64,000 bases of DNA from an uncultured Acidimicrobiales bacterium (GTDB lineage: Bacteria > Actinomycetota > Acidimicrobiia > Acidimicrobiales > SZUA-35), in the NCBI GenBank assembly GCA_937930695.1, contig CALHCB010000061.1:1-64000 (forward strand). The letters run 5' to 3'. This document shows, piece by piece, positions 23,910 through 44,591 of the stretch. The notes under the pieces were generated by a model, which was not told where the DNA came from, searched no databases, and worked only from the letters and a program-made list of their open reading frames with translations. A program made the position numbers and the translations under genes. The first letter of the stretch is position 1. Every line of letters begins with the position of its first letter.

Positions 23910-25505
23910 ATGCAGTTTGAACATGGCGGCTTGATGCCGCAGCGGATCGCAACGTTGGCCGAGGAACGTCCTGATGATCCGGTTCTGCTCCACGTCGATG
24001 GCACCCGGCTGAGCTGGAGCTCAGCCCACCAAGGCGCCATGAAATGGGCGAACGGTCTTGATCGTCTGGGCGTGCATCGAGGCGAGGCGGTCGTCACCAT
24101 CTTCGTGAACAACTTCGACTCGCTACAGGCGTGGGTGGGGTGCTCCTGGATTGGGGCGATCGAGTCGCCGATCAACACGAACTACAAGGGCGACTGGCTC
24201 CGGCATGTCATCGACAACACGCGCGCCACGGTCGTCGTCGCACAAGACCGGTTCGTCGAGGCCGTCTTCGACGTGGCGGACCAGCTGCCGCATGTCAAGA
24301 ATCTTGTCGTGTTCGGTGACAACTATGAGACCCGGGAGAAGTTGCCGTTCAACGTCATCGGGGCCGCCGATTTCCTGGCTGATGTGAGCGAGCACGCCCG
24401 GCAAGAACCAGCGCCGTGGGATCCTTCTAATCTCATCTACACATCGGGAACCACCGGGCGCTCCAAGGCCGTCCAAGTGCCGTGGGCTCACTATCGCTCA
24501 TCGCTCGAGAGCGGGTTTCTGCCCAAAGAGCAGCTCGAGACCATTCGCTTGTACGCGCCCTATCCGGTGTTCCACTTGACGGGGAAATCAGCCGGATACA
24601 TGGCGGCGCGATCTGGCGAGCCGGCGATCATCCGTGAGGCCTTTTCGGTGGCGGAGTTTTGGGATGATGTGCGCACGTTCGAGGCCACCGCAGGCGTCGT
24701 GCTGGGGCCGCTCGCTCAGATGCTCTTGAACCAGCCCGAGCGAGACGACGATGCCGTCAATCCGATGACAACGATCGTGATGGCACCGGTGATCCCGAAC
24801 GTGGAAGAGTTCGCAACCCGGTTCGATGTCGAAATTGGCACGACCTACAACATGACCGAGATCAACTGTCCGATCATTCAGCAGAAGCCGATCACGAATG
24901 CGAACTACTCCTGCTGCGGCCAAGTCCGACCAGGTGTTGAGGTTCGCGTGGTCGACGAACACGATCAGATGGTGCCGCCGAACACGCCAGGCGAAATGAT
25001 CATGCGAGCCGAGCCGTGGGAAATCAACTCCGGCTACTTCAACATGCCCGACAAGACGGCCGAGGCATGGGAGAACGGCTGGTTCCATACGGGCGACGCA
25101 TTCACCTATGACGAAGAGGGCAACTTCTACTTCGTTGATCGAGCGAAGGACTACATCCGGCGCAGGGGCGAGAACATCTCGAGCTTTGAAGTCGAGGCCC
25201 TGGTGAATGAGTTCCCACAGATCGCCGAGTGTGGGGCCGTTGCGGTGCCGGCCGAGGAAGGCGAGGACGAGGTCAAGGTCGCAGTGGTACTCGAGGAGGG
25301 CGTCGAGTTCGACCCCGCGGAGCTCGTCGAGTTCCTCGCGCCGAGAATGCCGCGTTTTGCCATTCCCCGCTTTGTCGAGGTGTGGAGCGAGCTTCCCAAG
25401 ACCGAGGCGACCGCTCGGATCCAGAAGGCAAAGATCCGCGATGCCGGAGTTACCGATCGCACCTGGGACCGGGTTGCCGCCGGCGTGAAAATCCCGCGTT
25501 CCTAG
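23910..25505 (+). CDS. AMP-dependent acyl-CoA synthetase (CaiC-like)
   Basis: NLIYTSGTTGRSKAVQVPWAHY, YNMTEINCP, GWFHTGDAFTYDEEGNFYFVDRAKDYIRRRGENISSFEVE. Confidence 0.92.
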   Translation: MQFEHGGLMPQRIATLAEERPDDPVLLHVDGTRLSWSSAHQGAMKWANGLDRLGVHRGEAVVTIFVNNFDSLQAWVGCSWIGAIESPINTNYKGDWLRHVIDNTRATVVVAQDRFVEAVFDVADQLPHVKNLVVFGDNYETREKLPFNVIGAADFLADVSEHARQEPAPWDPSNLIYTSGTTGRSKAVQVPWAHYRSSLESGFLPKEQLETIRLYAPYPVFHLTGKSAGYMAARSGEPAIIREAFSVAEFWDDVRTFEATAGVVLGPLAQMLLNQPERDDDAVNPMTTIVMAPVIPNVEEFATRFDVEIGTTYNMTEINCPIIQQKPITNANYSCCGQVRPGVEVRVVDEHDQMVPPNTPGEMIMRAEPWEINSGYFNMPDKTAEAWENGWFHTGDAFTYDEEGNFYFVDRAKDYIRRRGENISSFEVEALVNEFPQIAECGAVAVPAEEGEDEVKVAVVLEEGVEFDPAELVEFLAPRMPRFAIPRFVEVWSELPKTEATARIQKAKIRDAGVTDRTWDRVAAGVKIPRS

Positions 25506-26995
25506 CTCATGGCGTCAAGAGAGAAGTGGTGATCGAGCTGAGAGACGGCGTCGACGAGCTCTGAGAGTGAGCTCACTTTTGCCGCGACCACACGGTCGGG
25601 CCGAACCAGGAGGGCCTCGTTGTCGCCGAGCAGCTCACCCAACGCCTGTGTCGGCAATTGCAGGACCCTGGTCATCCCCGCCCACCGTCCATCCGCCGGA
25701 AGGATCTCGCTCGAACCCGTAGAGAACTCTGGCCCGGTCAGGAGCGTGAAGAACGGGCCCAGTTCCTCATCGAGGCGCACCGAGCCGAACGCCTGATCAT
25801 CGAGCATCGGCTGGGGAAGGGGACGCCCAATCGATGGGTCATCACCGACCCGGATCCCGTAGTCGAGCATGGGGGTTCCACGGGAACCGCCATATGCAGC
25901 ACCAAGATCCTCAGCAACTCCTCGGCCTGACAACTCGTCGATGAGGCGCCCGGTATCGACAGCGTTGGCAACGGTGGCTTCGGCATGAGGGCGACGCTCA
26001 GCGCTATAGCTGTCCAAGAGTCCGGCGGAGGCGTGGCCAGCTTTGATGAGCGAGATCTTCCAGGCCAGGTCGAAGCCGTCGCGGATCCCGGCAGCCAGCC
26101 CCTGACCGAGGAAGGGCGGCATTTGATGGGCCGCATCTCCCACCAACAGCACTCGTCCGCTTCGCATGGTGTCGGCCACGGTCGCATGGAACCGGTACAC
26201 GACCGCTCGGACCAGACGGGCGTCCTCAGGAGTCAGCCACTGGGACACCAACTCCCAGACTTGCTCGGGGTCCGCCATCGTTAGCCGGTCCTCACCTTCC
26301 TGGAGCTGGAACTCCCAGCGGCGATAGTCACGGTGGCCGGTGACGAAGGTGACCGGCCGATCGGGATCGCAGATCTGCTGGACAACAGTCGGGAGAGTGG
26401 GAACCGGCCGGGTCAACTCGAAGTCGACAACCAGCCAGTCCTGGTCAAAGCCCAGGCTCACAAAGGGGATTCCCAGCGACTTGCGAATCGGACTCGATGC
26501 GCCATCGGCGGCCAGCACCCACGACGCTCGATGAGAACTCTCGCCACTGCCGCTTGCCGTGACGACTGCGTCGGCATCGGTTTGCTCGACCGAGGTGACG
26601 TCCATCCCGAGACGCAGATCGACTCCCGCCTCGATGGCATGGCGGCGCAGGAACTCCTCCAGCTCTGGTTGGTAGTAGGCAACCGACGGATGATGCCCCT
26701 GAGCGGTCCGGGTCCCTGGCGGAAAGTCGATGCCGATGATGCGCTCTCCGCCCGGCTTGACGAACTCCGCCCCAACCATCGGGGTCGTGATGGCGTCGAG
26801 CTCATCGGACAACCCGATGGCTTGGAACAATCGCTGAATCGTGTCGTCCATCACGATCGCTCGAGGCAGGTCATACACCTCGGGCTCGCGCTCGAGGACC
26901 CGCACACTCATCCCGCGTTTGGCCAGGAACAGCGAGGTCGCGACGCCCGCAGGCCCACCGCCGACGATCACCACATCAACGTGCCGAGGGCTCAT
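25502..26995 (-). CDS. FAD-dependent aromatic monooxygenase (MhpA-like 3-(3-hydroxyphenyl)propionate hydroxylase family)
   Basis: VDVVIVGGGPAGVATSLFLAKRGMSVRVLEREPEVYDLPRAIVMDD, GRVLLVGDAAHQMPPFLGQGLAAGIRDGFDLAWK. Confidence 0.92.
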   Translation of the reverse strand: MSPRHVDVVIVGGGPAGVATSLFLAKRGMSVRVLEREPEVYDLPRAIVMDDTIQRLFQAIGLSDELDAITTPMVGAEFVKPGGERIIGIDFPPGTRTAQGHHPSVAYYQPELEEFLRRHAIEAGVDLRLGMDVTSVEQTDADAVVTASGSGESSHRASWVLAADGASSPIRKSLGIPFVSLGFDQDWLVVDFELTRPVPTLPTVVQQICDPDRPVTFVTGHRDYRRWEFQLQEGEDRLTMADPEQVWELVSQWLTPEDARLVRAVVYRFHATVADTMRSGRVLLVGDAAHQMPPFLGQGLAAGIRDGFDLAWKISLIKAGHASAGLLDSYSAERRPHAEATVANAVDTGRLIDELSGRGVAEDLGAAYGGSRGTPMLDYGIRVGDDPSIGRPLPQPMLDDQAFGSVRLDEELGPFFTLLTGPEFSTGSSEILPADGRWAGMTRVLQLPTQALGELLGDNEALLVRPDRVVAAKVSSLSELVDAVSQLDHHFSLDAMS

Positions 26996-28158
26996 CGTTG
27001 CCGGGCGAGCACGCGTCGTCGGCTGTGCACCTCATCTAAGGCCAGATAGCAGCCGATCAACCGTCGCCGTCCGGACGAACCGAGCGCAAAGGCCGTGCGC
27101 CCGTGCAAGAGACGATGATTGTTGAACGCGAGCATCTGGCCCGGCTTCAACCGGATCTGGATCTCGAACGAGGGGTCGTCAACTGTCATGTTCCAGACCC
27201 CTAGGGCTCGATAGAACTCCGGCGTTTGCGCCGGCCCGACGCGGGGCACGCCGACGAGGTCCGGTGCCCGTCGGATCTGGTCGTAGCGACCATCGGACCC
27301 GAGTCCGATGATGGGAGCTCGTCCATGATGCTCGATCTCGGTTCGGACATAGGGATAGGTCAGTTCAACGGTTGTCAGGATGTCCCACGCCGCTCGGTCG
27401 TGATGGCGAATGTGTTCGGCCACGGCGTACCCGTCAACGAAGGTCGAAGCACCACCCTTCACATCGGCATGCACGCACAAGAGGAGTTGTAGACCAGGCG
27501 CGAGCGCTCGATAGGGGAGATCGGTGTGGACCGCGAGCGGACGTTGGCTTTCCACTTCACTGATCGGCTCGAGCGTCGCCTCGATCTGCCATGTGACGCC
27601 ATAGTTGCTGGCTTGGATTTGGCCAATCTGATGGGCGGCAGCAACCAGATGCTCCTCATCAGCAGGCACATCCTCTACGAGGGCAACGCCTACGGACACG
27701 AGCGCATCCAGCCAAGCCGACAAGGCAGGCTGGCTCCCGTCTTCTCCGAAGGCATCACGCCATGTCGCGGAGTGGATGTCACCCAGCGAGGAGGCGTCCC
27801 AAAGAGTGAGGTCGCCTGCCGGTTCGCTTGATTGACCACAAGCGTCGGCATGATCGGCGAGCCACTCCACCGACAGGAGTGAGGTGTGACCATCGCTGAA
27901 CTGGACCTCAATCGCCTCTCCAGCATCGGGCCCACCACAAGCCGCAACGTTGGTGACCTGAAGCGCGGGATCAAAGGTCGTCGGATCTACCAGACGCTCG
28001 TTGGTCGCTGCCCGTCGACAGGTAGTGCACGGGCAGGCATCTCGAAGCAGAAGGGGATGGAACTGGATGATCTCTCCGTCGCCCAAGATCAGCGCGAGGA
28101 ATCCATCATCACCGATCGCAACCGAAGCAAGGTCGTGAGCTCGTCCCGCGACGCTCAT
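26992..28158 (-). CDS. gamma-butyrobetaine hydroxylase-like TauD/TfdA dioxygenase (with Zn-type DUF971 N-domain)
   Basis: N-domain LLRDACPCTTCRRAATNERLVDP and FSDGHTSLLSVEWL; Fe motif LAVHTDLPYRALAPGLQLLLCV and distal NNHRLLHGRTAF. Confidence 0.9.
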   Translation of the reverse strand: MSVAGRAHDLASVAIGDDGFLALILGDGEIIQFHPLLLRDACPCTTCRRAATNERLVDPTTFDPALQVTNVAACGGPDAGEAIEVQFSDGHTSLLSVEWLADHADACGQSSEPAGDLTLWDASSLGDIHSATWRDAFGEDGSQPALSAWLDALVSVGVALVEDVPADEEHLVAAAHQIGQIQASNYGVTWQIEATLEPISEVESQRPLAVHTDLPYRALAPGLQLLLCVHADVKGGASTFVDGYAVAEHIRHHDRAAWDILTTVELTYPYVRTEIEHHGRAPIIGLGSDGRYDQIRRAPDLVGVPRVGPAQTPEFYRALGVWNMTVDDPSFEIQIRLKPGQMLAFNNHRLLHGRTAFALGSSGRRRLIGCYLALDEVHSRRRVLARQR

Positions 28159-41940: not shown

Positions 41941-42795
41941 ATGCCATTTCGCCTTGCCAACGTCGACGGTCGTGCTGCCCTAGCCACCGAGACGCACTAC
42001 TTCGATCTCGAGTCACTCAGCGACGGCGCGTTCAGCAGTGATCCAATGGAGGCAATCAGCCGTTCCGATGAGATGTCCGCTCTCTCCGCTGGGCTGAACG
42101 CAGCGACGCCGACCGGGCCGCTTGACGGTGCAGCGTTGGAAAGTCCTGTGCCCCGACCCCAAAAGGCATTCGGCATCGGACTGAACTATCGAGCGCATGC
42201 AGTCGAGTCGAACATGGACATACCTGACGCTCCACTCATCTTCGCGAAATATCCCTCCTGCATCGTGGGACCTCACGCCACCGTGGAGCTGCGAAGCGAT
42301 GGAGTCGACTATGAAGTGGAACTCGTGGCTGTCATCGGAAAAAGGTGCAAGGACGTCGCTGTTGCCGACGCGTGGAATCATGTTGCCGGTCTCACTGCCG
42401 GTCAGGATATTTCTGATCGACCTGCACAATTCATGGCGAAGCCGCCCCAGTTCGGTGCTGCAAAGTCGATGGACACGTTCGGTCCAATGGGTCCCGTCAT
42501 GGTCTCGACCGACTCCTTCGAGAATCCCGATGACCTCGCGCTCACCTGTGCGATCAACGGGGAGATGCGCCAAGACTCTCGTTCGAACGACCTGATATTC
42601 GACATTCCGAGCCTCATCAGCACGCTGAGTCACATGATGACACTCGAAGTTGGCGACGTGATCTTCACTGGTACACCAGCGGGCGTTGGTTTTGCCCAGG
42701 GCAAGCCGCTCGTCGATGGCGACATCATCACCACCTGGGTCGAAGGAATCGGCACCATGACCAACCCGTGTGTACGGGTGAGTGACTGGCAATAG
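41941..42795 (+). CDS. fumarylacetoacetate hydrolase (FAH) family protein
   Basis: KAFGIGLNYRAHAVESNMDIPDAPLIFAKYPSCIVGP...VDYEVELVAVIGKRCKDV...NGEMRQDSRSNDLIFDIPSLISTLSHMMTLEVGDVIFTGTPAGVGF. Confidence 0.95.
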   Translation: MPFRLANVDGRAALATETHYFDLESLSDGAFSSDPMEAISRSDEMSALSAGLNAATPTGPLDGAALESPVPRPQKAFGIGLNYRAHAVESNMDIPDAPLIFAKYPSCIVGPHATVELRSDGVDYEVELVAVIGKRCKDVAVADAWNHVAGLTAGQDISDRPAQFMAKPPQFGAAKSMDTFGPMGPVMVSTDSFENPDDLALTCAINGEMRQDSRSNDLIFDIPSLISTLSHMMTLEVGDVIFTGTPAGVGFAQGKPLVDGDIITTWVEGIGTMTNPCVRVSDWQ

Positions 42796-43996
42796 CGACG
42801 TGGAGCGGCCTCTGACCCCCGACTTCTACGACTACCCGTGGACGCCGCCATCAGATGTGGTCGTTGATGGTGACTTCCTGAGTATCAGGTGGGCAGACGG
42901 AGCTGAGCTGGTTGCCTACAAGCAATGGCTCCGAGAGAACGAGGTTGGCGGCGGGGGAGTCGACGTTGCGACTCGGGAAGGGCTCATCGATCCAGCGCAC
43001 ATCGACGACACCTTGCAGATCAGGGAGGCCAGAATCGACGCTACCGGCGTCGTCGAAGTCCACTGGTACCCAGATGACGTTCTCGGCCGCTATCACCCTG
43101 GGTGGCTTCGACACATCGCCGATGGCTCTCATCGTCCCGAAAGTTGGCTGTCTGATCCCGTTGCCTGGACATCAGCGGAACTGGCCGAACCTCCAACCCA
43201 TCCTGCCGATGCCTTGGAGTCAGCTCTCCCACGGTTGGCGTTGGTGCAAGATCTCATGCGTTATGGCTTCGTCCGCCTACGGGGCTGCCCAACCGATTCG
43301 GACCACCTCGCCAAACTGGCGGGTCACTTTGGCCCACTGCGCGACACCAACTTCGGTCGGGTCTGGGATGTCAAGGCCGACATCGATCCCACGAGCACTG
43401 CAAACACCGGACTGCGCCTCGGTCCCCACACCGATTTGCCGACGCGCGAGGCGCCACCGGGATTCCAGATGCTCCATTGCGTGATCAACTCGACATCGGG
43501 CGGGTACTCAGAAATGGCTGATGGGCTCGCGGTGGCCAATCGGCTCCGGGCCATGGATCCTGACGCCCACGACATTCTGACTACTCGGCGCTGGATCTTC
43601 TTCAACCGTGGCGCAGAAATCGATCATCGCTGGTCGGGTCCGCTCATCGACCATGGCGTGCCGGGTTCCCCGTTGACGTTTCGAGCGTTCTATCCCGTTC
43701 GAGCCTTTCCGGACATGCCGGCGGACGACGTGCCAAAGGCATACGCAGCGATGCGACAGTTCTCCCACATTGCCGCCAGCCCAGAATTCCAGGTGGCATC
43801 TCGATTCGAACCTGGCGACGTCGTGATGTTCGACAATCGCCGCGTGTTACACGGCCGCGGCGCCTATGACCCGTCTGCCGGATCACGCCATCTTCGCGGT
43901 TGCTATCTGGATCATGATGATGTGAGATCGACCGCCCGCGTCTGGGCTCGACGAGCCACAATCCCCCCAGCAGGAGCCGCTGCCAATGTCATCTGA
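42782..43996 (+). CDS. gamma-butyrobetaine hydroxylase-like / TmpA-like TauD/TfdA Fe(II)/2OG dioxygenase
   Basis: LRLGPHTDLPTREAPPGFQMLHCVINSTSGGYSEMADGLAVANRLR (HxD), DVVMFDNRRVLHGRGAYDPSAGSRHLRGCYLDHDDVRS (distal His and Arg). N-domain lacks the Zn Cys residues. Confidence 0.9.
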   Translation: MTGNSDVERPLTPDFYDYPWTPPSDVVVDGDFLSIRWADGAELVAYKQWLRENEVGGGGVDVATREGLIDPAHIDDTLQIREARIDATGVVEVHWYPDDVLGRYHPGWLRHIADGSHRPESWLSDPVAWTSAELAEPPTHPADALESALPRLALVQDLMRYGFVRLRGCPTDSDHLAKLAGHFGPLRDTNFGRVWDVKADIDPTSTANTGLRLGPHTDLPTREAPPGFQMLHCVINSTSGGYSEMADGLAVANRLRAMDPDAHDILTTRRWIFFNRGAEIDHRWSGPLIDHGVPGSPLTFRAFYPVRAFPDMPADDVPKAYAAMRQFSHIAASPEFQVASRFEPGDVVMFDNRRVLHGRGAYDPSAGSRHLRGCYLDHDDVRSTARVWARRATIPPAGAAANVI

Positions 43997-44591
43997 AGAA
44001 CTACCAGGGACCTACACCGTGTCGTGGACGGACATGGCTTCGGGGACACAGGCCGACTACGAAATGTTGACGCCTGCGTTCGAACACCATGCACGAGCCG
44101 CTCTGGTCCCCAATCTTCTCGGCATGCTTGATCTGCTGAAGGGCCCAACGCTGGGGTACCAGGTGGATCGCTACGAGCACTCGCTCCAGTCGGCGAGCCG
44201 AGCGCTCCGCAACGATGAGTCAGTCGACCTCGTGGTCGGTGCGCTGCTTCACGACGTTGCAGACGGATTTGCACCGGAGAACCACAGCGAAGCCGCCGCT
44301 GCATTGCTCGCTCCGTACGTCGATGAACAAACGCACTGGGTGATCAAGCATCACGGGATCTTTCAGGGGTACTACTACTTCCACCATCTGGGGGGAGACC
44401 GAGATGCCCGAAGTCTCTACGCCGAGTCGCCGCACTTCGACGCGTGTGTCCAGTTCTGCGCGGAGTACGACCAGAACTGCTTTGACCCAAGCTACACATC
44501 GCTCCCCATCGAGGAATTTCGCCCGCTACTCGATGAGGTGTTCAGCCGGCCATCTCGAGTCCCCGGCGTCGCACCTGCTCGGGAGAACTAG
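43986..44591 (+). CDS. HD-domain (PhnZ/TmpB-like) putative mixed-valence diiron oxygenase
   Basis: YEHSLQSASRALRNDESVDLVVGALLHDVADGFAPENHSEAAAALLAPYV...VIKHHGIFQGYYYFHHLGG...FCAEYDQNCFDPSYTSLPIEEFRPLLDEVF. H to HD spacing is 24 residues. Confidence 0.8.
   Translation: MSSEELPGTYTVSWTDMASGTQADYEMLTPAFEHHARAALVPNLLGMLDLLKGPTLGYQVDRYEHSLQSASRALRNDESVDLVVGALLHDVADGFAPENHSEAAAALLAPYVDEQTHWVIKHHGIFQGYYYFHHLGGDRDARSLYAESPHFDACVQFCAEYDQNCFDPSYTSLPIEEFRPLLDEVFSRPSRVPGVAPAREN

Follow-up and report, generated by a model that had tools for sequence, protein, structure and literature searches.

HD-domain oxygenases are a group for which a review lists three activities, those of myo-inositol oxygenase (MIOX), PhnZ and TmpB (PMC8177086). 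The same review describes the H...HD...H...H...D motif and the YxxE loop of these enzymes, the bridging of both irons by the Asp of the HD pair in PhnZ and TmpB, and the cleavage of an alcohol-adjacent C-X bond by all known members. In the TmpA/TmpB system of Leisingera caerulea (PDB 6npb and 6npa), a BBOX-like Fe/2-oxoglutarate (2OG) hydroxylase is combined with an HD oxygenase of the four-His/two-Asp (4H2D) type whose product is glycine betaine; PhnY/PhnZ acts on 2-aminoethylphosphonate (PDB 4mlm and 4n71). PhoF, as far as its citation in PMC10574752 describes it, is a fungal PhnY-PhnZ fusion and would unite a hydroxylase and an HD oxygenase in one chain. BBOX (gamma-butyrobetaine dioxygenase) is also found together with carnitine dehydrogenase (CDH) and BKACE, for example on an Arctic SAR11 island (PMC12421898).

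We analyzed a 64,000-nucleotide stretch of DNA (the window) from an uncultured Acidimicrobiales bacterium, in which genes for an FAH-family protein, a BBOX/TmpA-family oxygenase (OG, P0002) and an HD-domain protein (HD, P0003) follow one another (Table 1). The sequence-only reading of this locus had described three overlapping genes on the same strand, and this layout was borne out. The FAH gene ends 14 bp into the OG reading frame, which opens with GTG, and the OG gene ends 11 bp into that of HD. An alternative GTG at codon 7 of OG would leave a small gap in place of the first overlap; the second one suits co-translation of OG and HD. Pfam matches were obtained with FAA_hydrolase for FAH (PF01557; 212 bits against a gathering score of 23.9, which places it in the FAH superfamily), TauD for OG (171.9 bits) and HD for the HD protein (26.4 bits).

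Table 1. Genes of the locus, residues of the HD protein discussed in the text and loci of the fused protein in relatives
Feature	Position	Strand	Remark
FAH-family (fumarylacetoacetate hydrolase fold) hydrolase/decarboxylase	41941..42795	+	284 aa
OG (P0002), BBOX/TmpA-family Fe(II)/2-oxoglutarate oxygenase	42782..43996	+	404 aa
HD (P0003), HD-domain protein, uncharacterised clade of HD oxygenases	43986..44591	+	201 aa
Y58, aromatic residue where TmpB and PhnZ have the substrate-binding Glu (YxxE loop)	44157..44159	+	Y in 43, F in 9 of 52
R62, candidate carboxylate anchor	44169..44171	+	R in 52/52; M in TmpB, Q in PhnZ
H65, first predicted iron ligand	44178..44180	+	52/52 conserved
H89-D90, HD pair, predicted ligands	44250..44255	+	52/52; function by homology
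H100, predicted ligand	44283..44285	+	52/52 conserved
H123, predicted ligand	44352..44354	+	52/52 conserved
Q127, in place of PhnZ Lys108 (H+4)	44364..44366	+	Q in 52/52
D162, predicted last ligand	44469..44471	+	52/52 conserved
Fused protein	L131:9759-11903, L071:5834-7966, L132:8792-11143, L133:8381-10963, L134:334-2760		
Fused protein, continued	L135:2980-5202, L136:7484-9784, L137:3050-5326, L138:280-2577, L139:7117-9126		

The HD protein: metal site and substrate site

Matches of the single HD sequence to NCBIfam models were weak and restricted to TmpB (NF049941; 20.7 bits for a cut-off of 300), Phn-HD (20.2 bits for a cut-off of 214.6) and PhnZ. A profile was built on 52 relatives, which also served for all residue counts. 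Compared with the PDB, this profile retrieved PhnZ (E-value 1.5e-11) and TmpB (6.3e-9), all later matches having E-values of 0.5 or above. An AlphaFold2 model computed from the 52-relative alignment reached a pLDDT of 93.7. When it was submitted to Foldseek against the PDB, the ten best matches were all PhnZ or TmpB structures (2.8e-6, obtained with PhnZ, to 8e-5); the next E-value was 0.036 and no phosphohydrolase scored better than 0.001. An ordinary phosphohydrolase is ruled out by these profile and fold searches, in agreement with the previous assignment of the protein to the HD oxygenases. MIOX, a C-C bond-cleaving HD diiron oxygenase, ranked only 15th in the fold search (E-value 0.2). 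The Pfam MIOX model gave weak matches in 8 of the 52 clade members and one relative is labelled "inositol oxygenase family protein" by NCBI; no inositol gene context was recognised.

The motifs YEHSLQSA, LLHDVAD, ENHSE, IKHHG and YDQNCFDP, from which a 4H2D arrangement had been proposed, were all found in the translation, and the first His (H65) precedes H89-D90 by 24 residues as noted earlier. Each of the six ligands is conserved in all 52 distant relatives, so the pattern is real and not an artefact of reading. By analogy with PhnZ and TmpB, HD is predicted to be a mixed-valent diiron oxygenase, the diiron cofactor being part of this prediction.

The substrate site differs from those of both enzymes, PhnZ sharing about 21% identity with HD. 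In 52/52 sequences, Tyr or Phe occupies the position of the Glu that binds substrate in the YxxE loop (Glu27 in PhnZ, Tyr58 in HD), and Gln that of the Lys located four residues past the fourth His. This Lys (Lys108 in PhnZ), a phosphonate-binding residue, is retained in the HD domains of a fused, TmpB-type protein described below. Judged from conserved residues, the HD clade is one in which the oxygenase metal site has been kept and the substrate site changed. The Glu to Tyr/Phe and Lys to Gln replacements and the new Arg would fit a trimethylammonium/carboxylate compound better than a phosphonate.

The hydroxylase, its branch and its pairing with HD

OG had been described as a BBOX-like 2OG oxygenase, and its closest PDB matches in a phmmer search were indeed TmpA (6npb, 1.3e-45) and then human BBOX (3.5e-38). 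It scored 257.5 bits with the TmpA model NF049936 (equivalog cut-off 400) and 255.8 bits with the gamma-butyrobetaine dioxygenase model TIGR02409 (cut-off 414.75). The iron ligands HxD...H and the 2OG-binding Arg are present (equivalents of H202, D204, H347 and R360). We compared the pocket at BBOX positions 177, 181, 191, 194, 205 and 292, which read F W S N L F in OG, Y F N Y N N in TmpA and Y W N Y Y N in BBOX; OG differs from TmpA at all six. The cut-offs and pocket residues rule out that OG and HD are members of the TmpA and TmpB families. In BBOX, Y177, W181, Y194 and Y366 form an aromatic cage, Asn191 and Asn292 being further pocket residues, the latter assigned to the carboxylate. OG carries F, W, N and Y at the cage positions (three of the four aromatic), and both Asn are lost, Phe replacing Asn292. 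Because Y194, N191 and N292 are missing, gamma-butyrobetaine is not assured as the OG substrate.

The F W S N L F pocket is common to nearly all OG homologues linked to BKACE and CDH. Homologues from the same bacterial family (48-61% identity) are mostly encoded in operons with BKACE and carnitine-dehydrogenase-like genes, often with a divergent IclR regulator, as are the OG orthologues of G001 and G003, two relatives of the window genome in the same genus. In the tree, P0002 lies inside this BKACE/CDH-linked branch (support 100/100), away from TmpA, which groups with the fused bacterial protein (95/92). With their counterparts in a Pseudotabrizicola carnitine operon (L224), the BKACE of the branch shares about 60% identity and its CDH about 57%; the CDH of that operon scores above the carnitine 3-dehydrogenase cut-off (762.9 bits for 592). 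Given this resemblance, the most likely product of the OG branch is carnitine or a closely analogous compound. In contrast to these operons, the window has HD in place of the BKACE-CDH pair. Only more distant BKACE and CDH homologues (47% and 43%, contig C213) were found in the window genome, and since the assembly is 86% complete the lack of orthologues is not certain.

It had been expected that OG and HD would be conserved as neighbours. This failed within the genus and held in other lineages. In G001 and G003, the two same-genus genomes that could be inspected, the same MFS gene directly adjoins HD in divergent orientation, with no FAH-OG between them; the FAH-OG segment therefore looks like an insertion in the window lineage, and within this genus the OG-HD adjacency is seen in the window genome only. 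Elsewhere, OG was found beside HD in 13 examined loci and came first in 10 of them, with stop/start offsets of -13 to +9 bp (-11 in the window). The paired OGs belong to three separate supported branches, that of the window and two more; that one HD family has acquired such different OG partners speaks for a common pathway. The idea that OG and HD are unlinked, as their separation in close relatives would have it, is weakened by such recurrent pairs in other phyla. Among 296 genomes of the same phylum, HD was present in 18 overall and in 5 of the 6 with a BBOX-like gene (Fisher p 2.7e-6, kinship ignored). The majority of HD genes stand without an adjacent OG.

The HD clade extends over Acidimicrobiia, Alpha- and Gammaproteobacteria, SAR11, SAR86, Chloroflexota, Gemmatimonadota, relatives of Rhodococcus and further groups. 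Its neighbourhoods were surveyed in the 80 best-scoring loci of HD relatives, a non-random set; about one third of it comes from SAR11 and has a single gene order in common. In 19 of these 80, the locus included carnitine, betaine or OG genes. Recurrent neighbours were CDH/BKACE, dimethylglycine and sarcosine oxidases, and BCCT or choline uptake genes, as in the orders BKACE-HD-carnitine 3-dehydrogenase (L224, also L214 and L223), RamA-HD-DMGDH-SoxB-SoxA (L201), SoxB-HD-OG (L203), BCCT transporter-OG-HD with MttB nearby (L225) and, on the Pseudomonas aeruginosa plasmid pF045_1 (L231), OG-HD-choline binding protein-choline dehydrogenase-ALDH. HD also adjoins DMGDH/SoxB and RamA in the absence of OG (L201, L152, L219 and L213). 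Since annotated plasmid loci of Phaeobacter and Sphingobium hold HD and no recognised betaine gene, the betaine linkage is frequent and not general. No phosphonate uptake or C-P gene was recognised beside HD when the loci were inspected, this being no systematic scan.

The FAH gene had been thought to add a substrate or product beyond the known pathway, an extension that is unsupported. The nearest solved structures of FAH include a putative HpcE, HpcE and maleylpyruvate hydrolase; no NCBIfam equivalog cut-off was reached, the best score being 159 of 500 bits for 2,4-didehydro-3-deoxy-L-rhamnonate hydrolase. Its orthologues in relatives sit away from OG and HD and adjoin FAD monooxygenases, SDRs or luciferase-like genes, so FAH is probably an incidental, later neighbour of OG-HD. 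In the annotated loci, none of the four genes to either side of HD was tagged as FAH. This absence and the other neighbours of the orthologues led us to reject FAH as a conserved pathway partner.

Proposed reaction and rival explanations

With moderate confidence, and by analogy with TmpA/TmpB, we propose that OG and HD would form a similar two-oxygenase relay acting on a quaternary-ammonium carboxylate rather than a phosphonate, with O2-dependent C-C cleavage to glycine betaine, the product of TmpB. In this scheme OG, with Fe(II) and 2OG, would hydroxylate a betaine-type acid, and HD would use O2 to cleave the C-C bond beside the new alcohol. A hydroxylated HD substrate is favoured because the known HD oxygenases cleave next to an alcohol. 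The best guess for the first step is gamma-butyrobetaine to L-carnitine, because the OG branch otherwise feeds CDH and BKACE; the choice of carnitine also follows, as we infer, from the presence of HD in carnitine operons. The general scheme, modelled on TmpB, would be R-CH(OH)-X + O2 -> R-COO- + X-OH. For R = (CH3)3N+CH2, X = PO3 gives the TmpB reaction, X = CH2COO- that of carnitine (L-carnitine + O2 -> glycine betaine + glycolate) and X = COO- a close alternative (2-hydroxy-3-trimethylammoniopropanoate + O2 -> glycine betaine + bicarbonate); both carboxylate versions balance. Glycolate release is chemically less favourable than phosphate release, which counts against carnitine cleavage, and because the adjoining CDH and BKACE (L224, L214 and L223) already degrade carnitine, HD may act on another compound.

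The sequence-only reading had favoured C-P cleavage by a pair of the TmpA/TmpB or PhnY/PhnZ type, in which OG would hydroxylate a phosphonate and HD free phosphate. The nearest solved homologues of OG and HD are indeed TmpA and TmpB/PhnZ, and TMAEP is itself a quaternary-ammonium compound that yields glycine betaine through TmpB. However, both proteins score far below the family cut-offs, the Glu and Lys are missing throughout the 52 relatives, the OG pocket is unlike that of TmpA, which groups with a different, fused protein, and the recognised neighbours are carnitine and betaine genes rather than phosphonate ones. The pairing idea was therefore right in kind, and a phosphonate substrate is unlikely; we regard this form of the pathway as highly improbable. 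A fortuitous neighbourhood, with FAH and OG inserted beside HD in the window lineage and no common pathway, would account for the arrangement in G001 and G003, where HD lacks FAH-OG, the OG orthologues lie in OG-BKACE-CDH operons and the FAH orthologues elsewhere. It is at odds with the same-order, overlapping coupling of OGs from unrelated branches in ten other loci, with the overlap in the window itself and with the chance of about 6e-11 of finding 7 adjacent OG-HD pairs in about 47 non-SAR11 loci (assuming 0.27% per locus), and we consider it improbable.

Closer to the proposed relay is the view that HD serves quaternary-ammonium metabolism through another reaction, for instance one that oxidises intermediates of the betaine aldehyde type or demethylated ones, or that OG-HD acts on homocholine or beta-alanine betaine instead of carnitine. 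The loci in which HD adjoins DMGDH/SoxB and RamA and no OG speak for it, as does the choline dehydrogenase-ALDH pair beside OG-HD in pF045_1. Against it stand the carnitine operons that also hold HD and the alcohol-adjacent C-X cleavage common to all known HD oxygenases (PMC8177086). We judge it rather unlikely, although clearly less so than the two preceding alternatives.

Returning to the proposed C-C cleaving relay, its interest lies in the HD clade. This is a large, coherent clade with oxygenase ligands kept, a different substrate site and neighbourhoods that point to carnitine and betaine; a literature search yielded no biochemical description of it and none linking it to these compounds. 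More tentatively than for the relay, and as a possibility only, the clade (H65, the HD pair, H100, H123, D162, aromatic residue 58, Q127 and R62) might be a further functional class that cleaves C2-C3 of L-carnitine, or C1-C2 of a 2-hydroxy-betaine, with O2 to glycine betaine without CoA, widespread including SAR11 and often paired with recruited BBOX-like hydroxylases. Carnitine and betaine are abundant nitrogen osmolytes. If HD cleaves C-C bonds of hydroxy-betaines, soil and marine bacteria would possess an O2-dependent route to glycine betaine, and the TmpA/TmpB logic would extend from C-P to C-C bonds. Genes of this clade would tend to be mislabelled in databases as phosphohydrolases or phosphonate genes.

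Related oxygenases and other HD loci

In SAR11 (L159 and about 30 other loci), HD lies between purF and, by eye, a glutamate-cysteine ligase-like gene with no betaine gene nearby, an order that says nothing on betaine. Prescottella agglutinans has two tandem HD-clade proteins (L154:7299-8558; 49% and 55% to P0003). In another genus (L073, L074, L077, L080 and L081), a conserved series of genes beside monomeric isocitrate dehydrogenase starts with the HD orthologue: HD-SDR-class III aminotransferase-alanine racemase-like-acyl-CoA ligase-enoyl-CoA hydratase, with members varying by genome.

On its minus strand, the window carries a second gene for a BBOX-like 2OG oxygenase (26992-28158), whose product is 31% identical to P0002 and has Y W S E L A at the pocket positions. 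It is coupled to the gene of an FAD monooxygenase (25502-28158 for both), and monooxygenases of this type are the ones that adjoin FAH orthologues in relatives. A third 2OG gene of the window genome (L130:9379-10449, G000:C194) belongs to the branch most often found beside HD elsewhere; its contig also carries a sarcosine/dimethylglycine dehydrogenase-like gene, and its product is a possible HD partner in trans.

The fused protein of relatives (670-860 aa; Table 1) combines an N-terminal alkaline-phosphatase-superfamily domain (PF01663 in L071) with HD and 2OG domains. Its HD domain has TmpB-type residues (YGE loop, HVxAKR, LRxxDDxGK) and its 2OG domain those of TmpA (Y F N Y N N). The protein appears to be an entire TmpA/TmpB phosphonate pathway on a single polypeptide, possibly with a hydrolase as third enzyme. 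Fungal PhoF was the only such fusion found described in our literature search. As far as PhoF is characterised by its citation, the bacterial fused protein appears closer to it than OG and HD, which are separate chains with a non-phosphonate pocket. The window genome also has a second HD-clade protein (L129:8919-9461, G000:C41; 42%), whose counterpart in G001 and G003 adjoins the fused phosphodiesterase-HD-2OG protein, missing at this place in the window genome.
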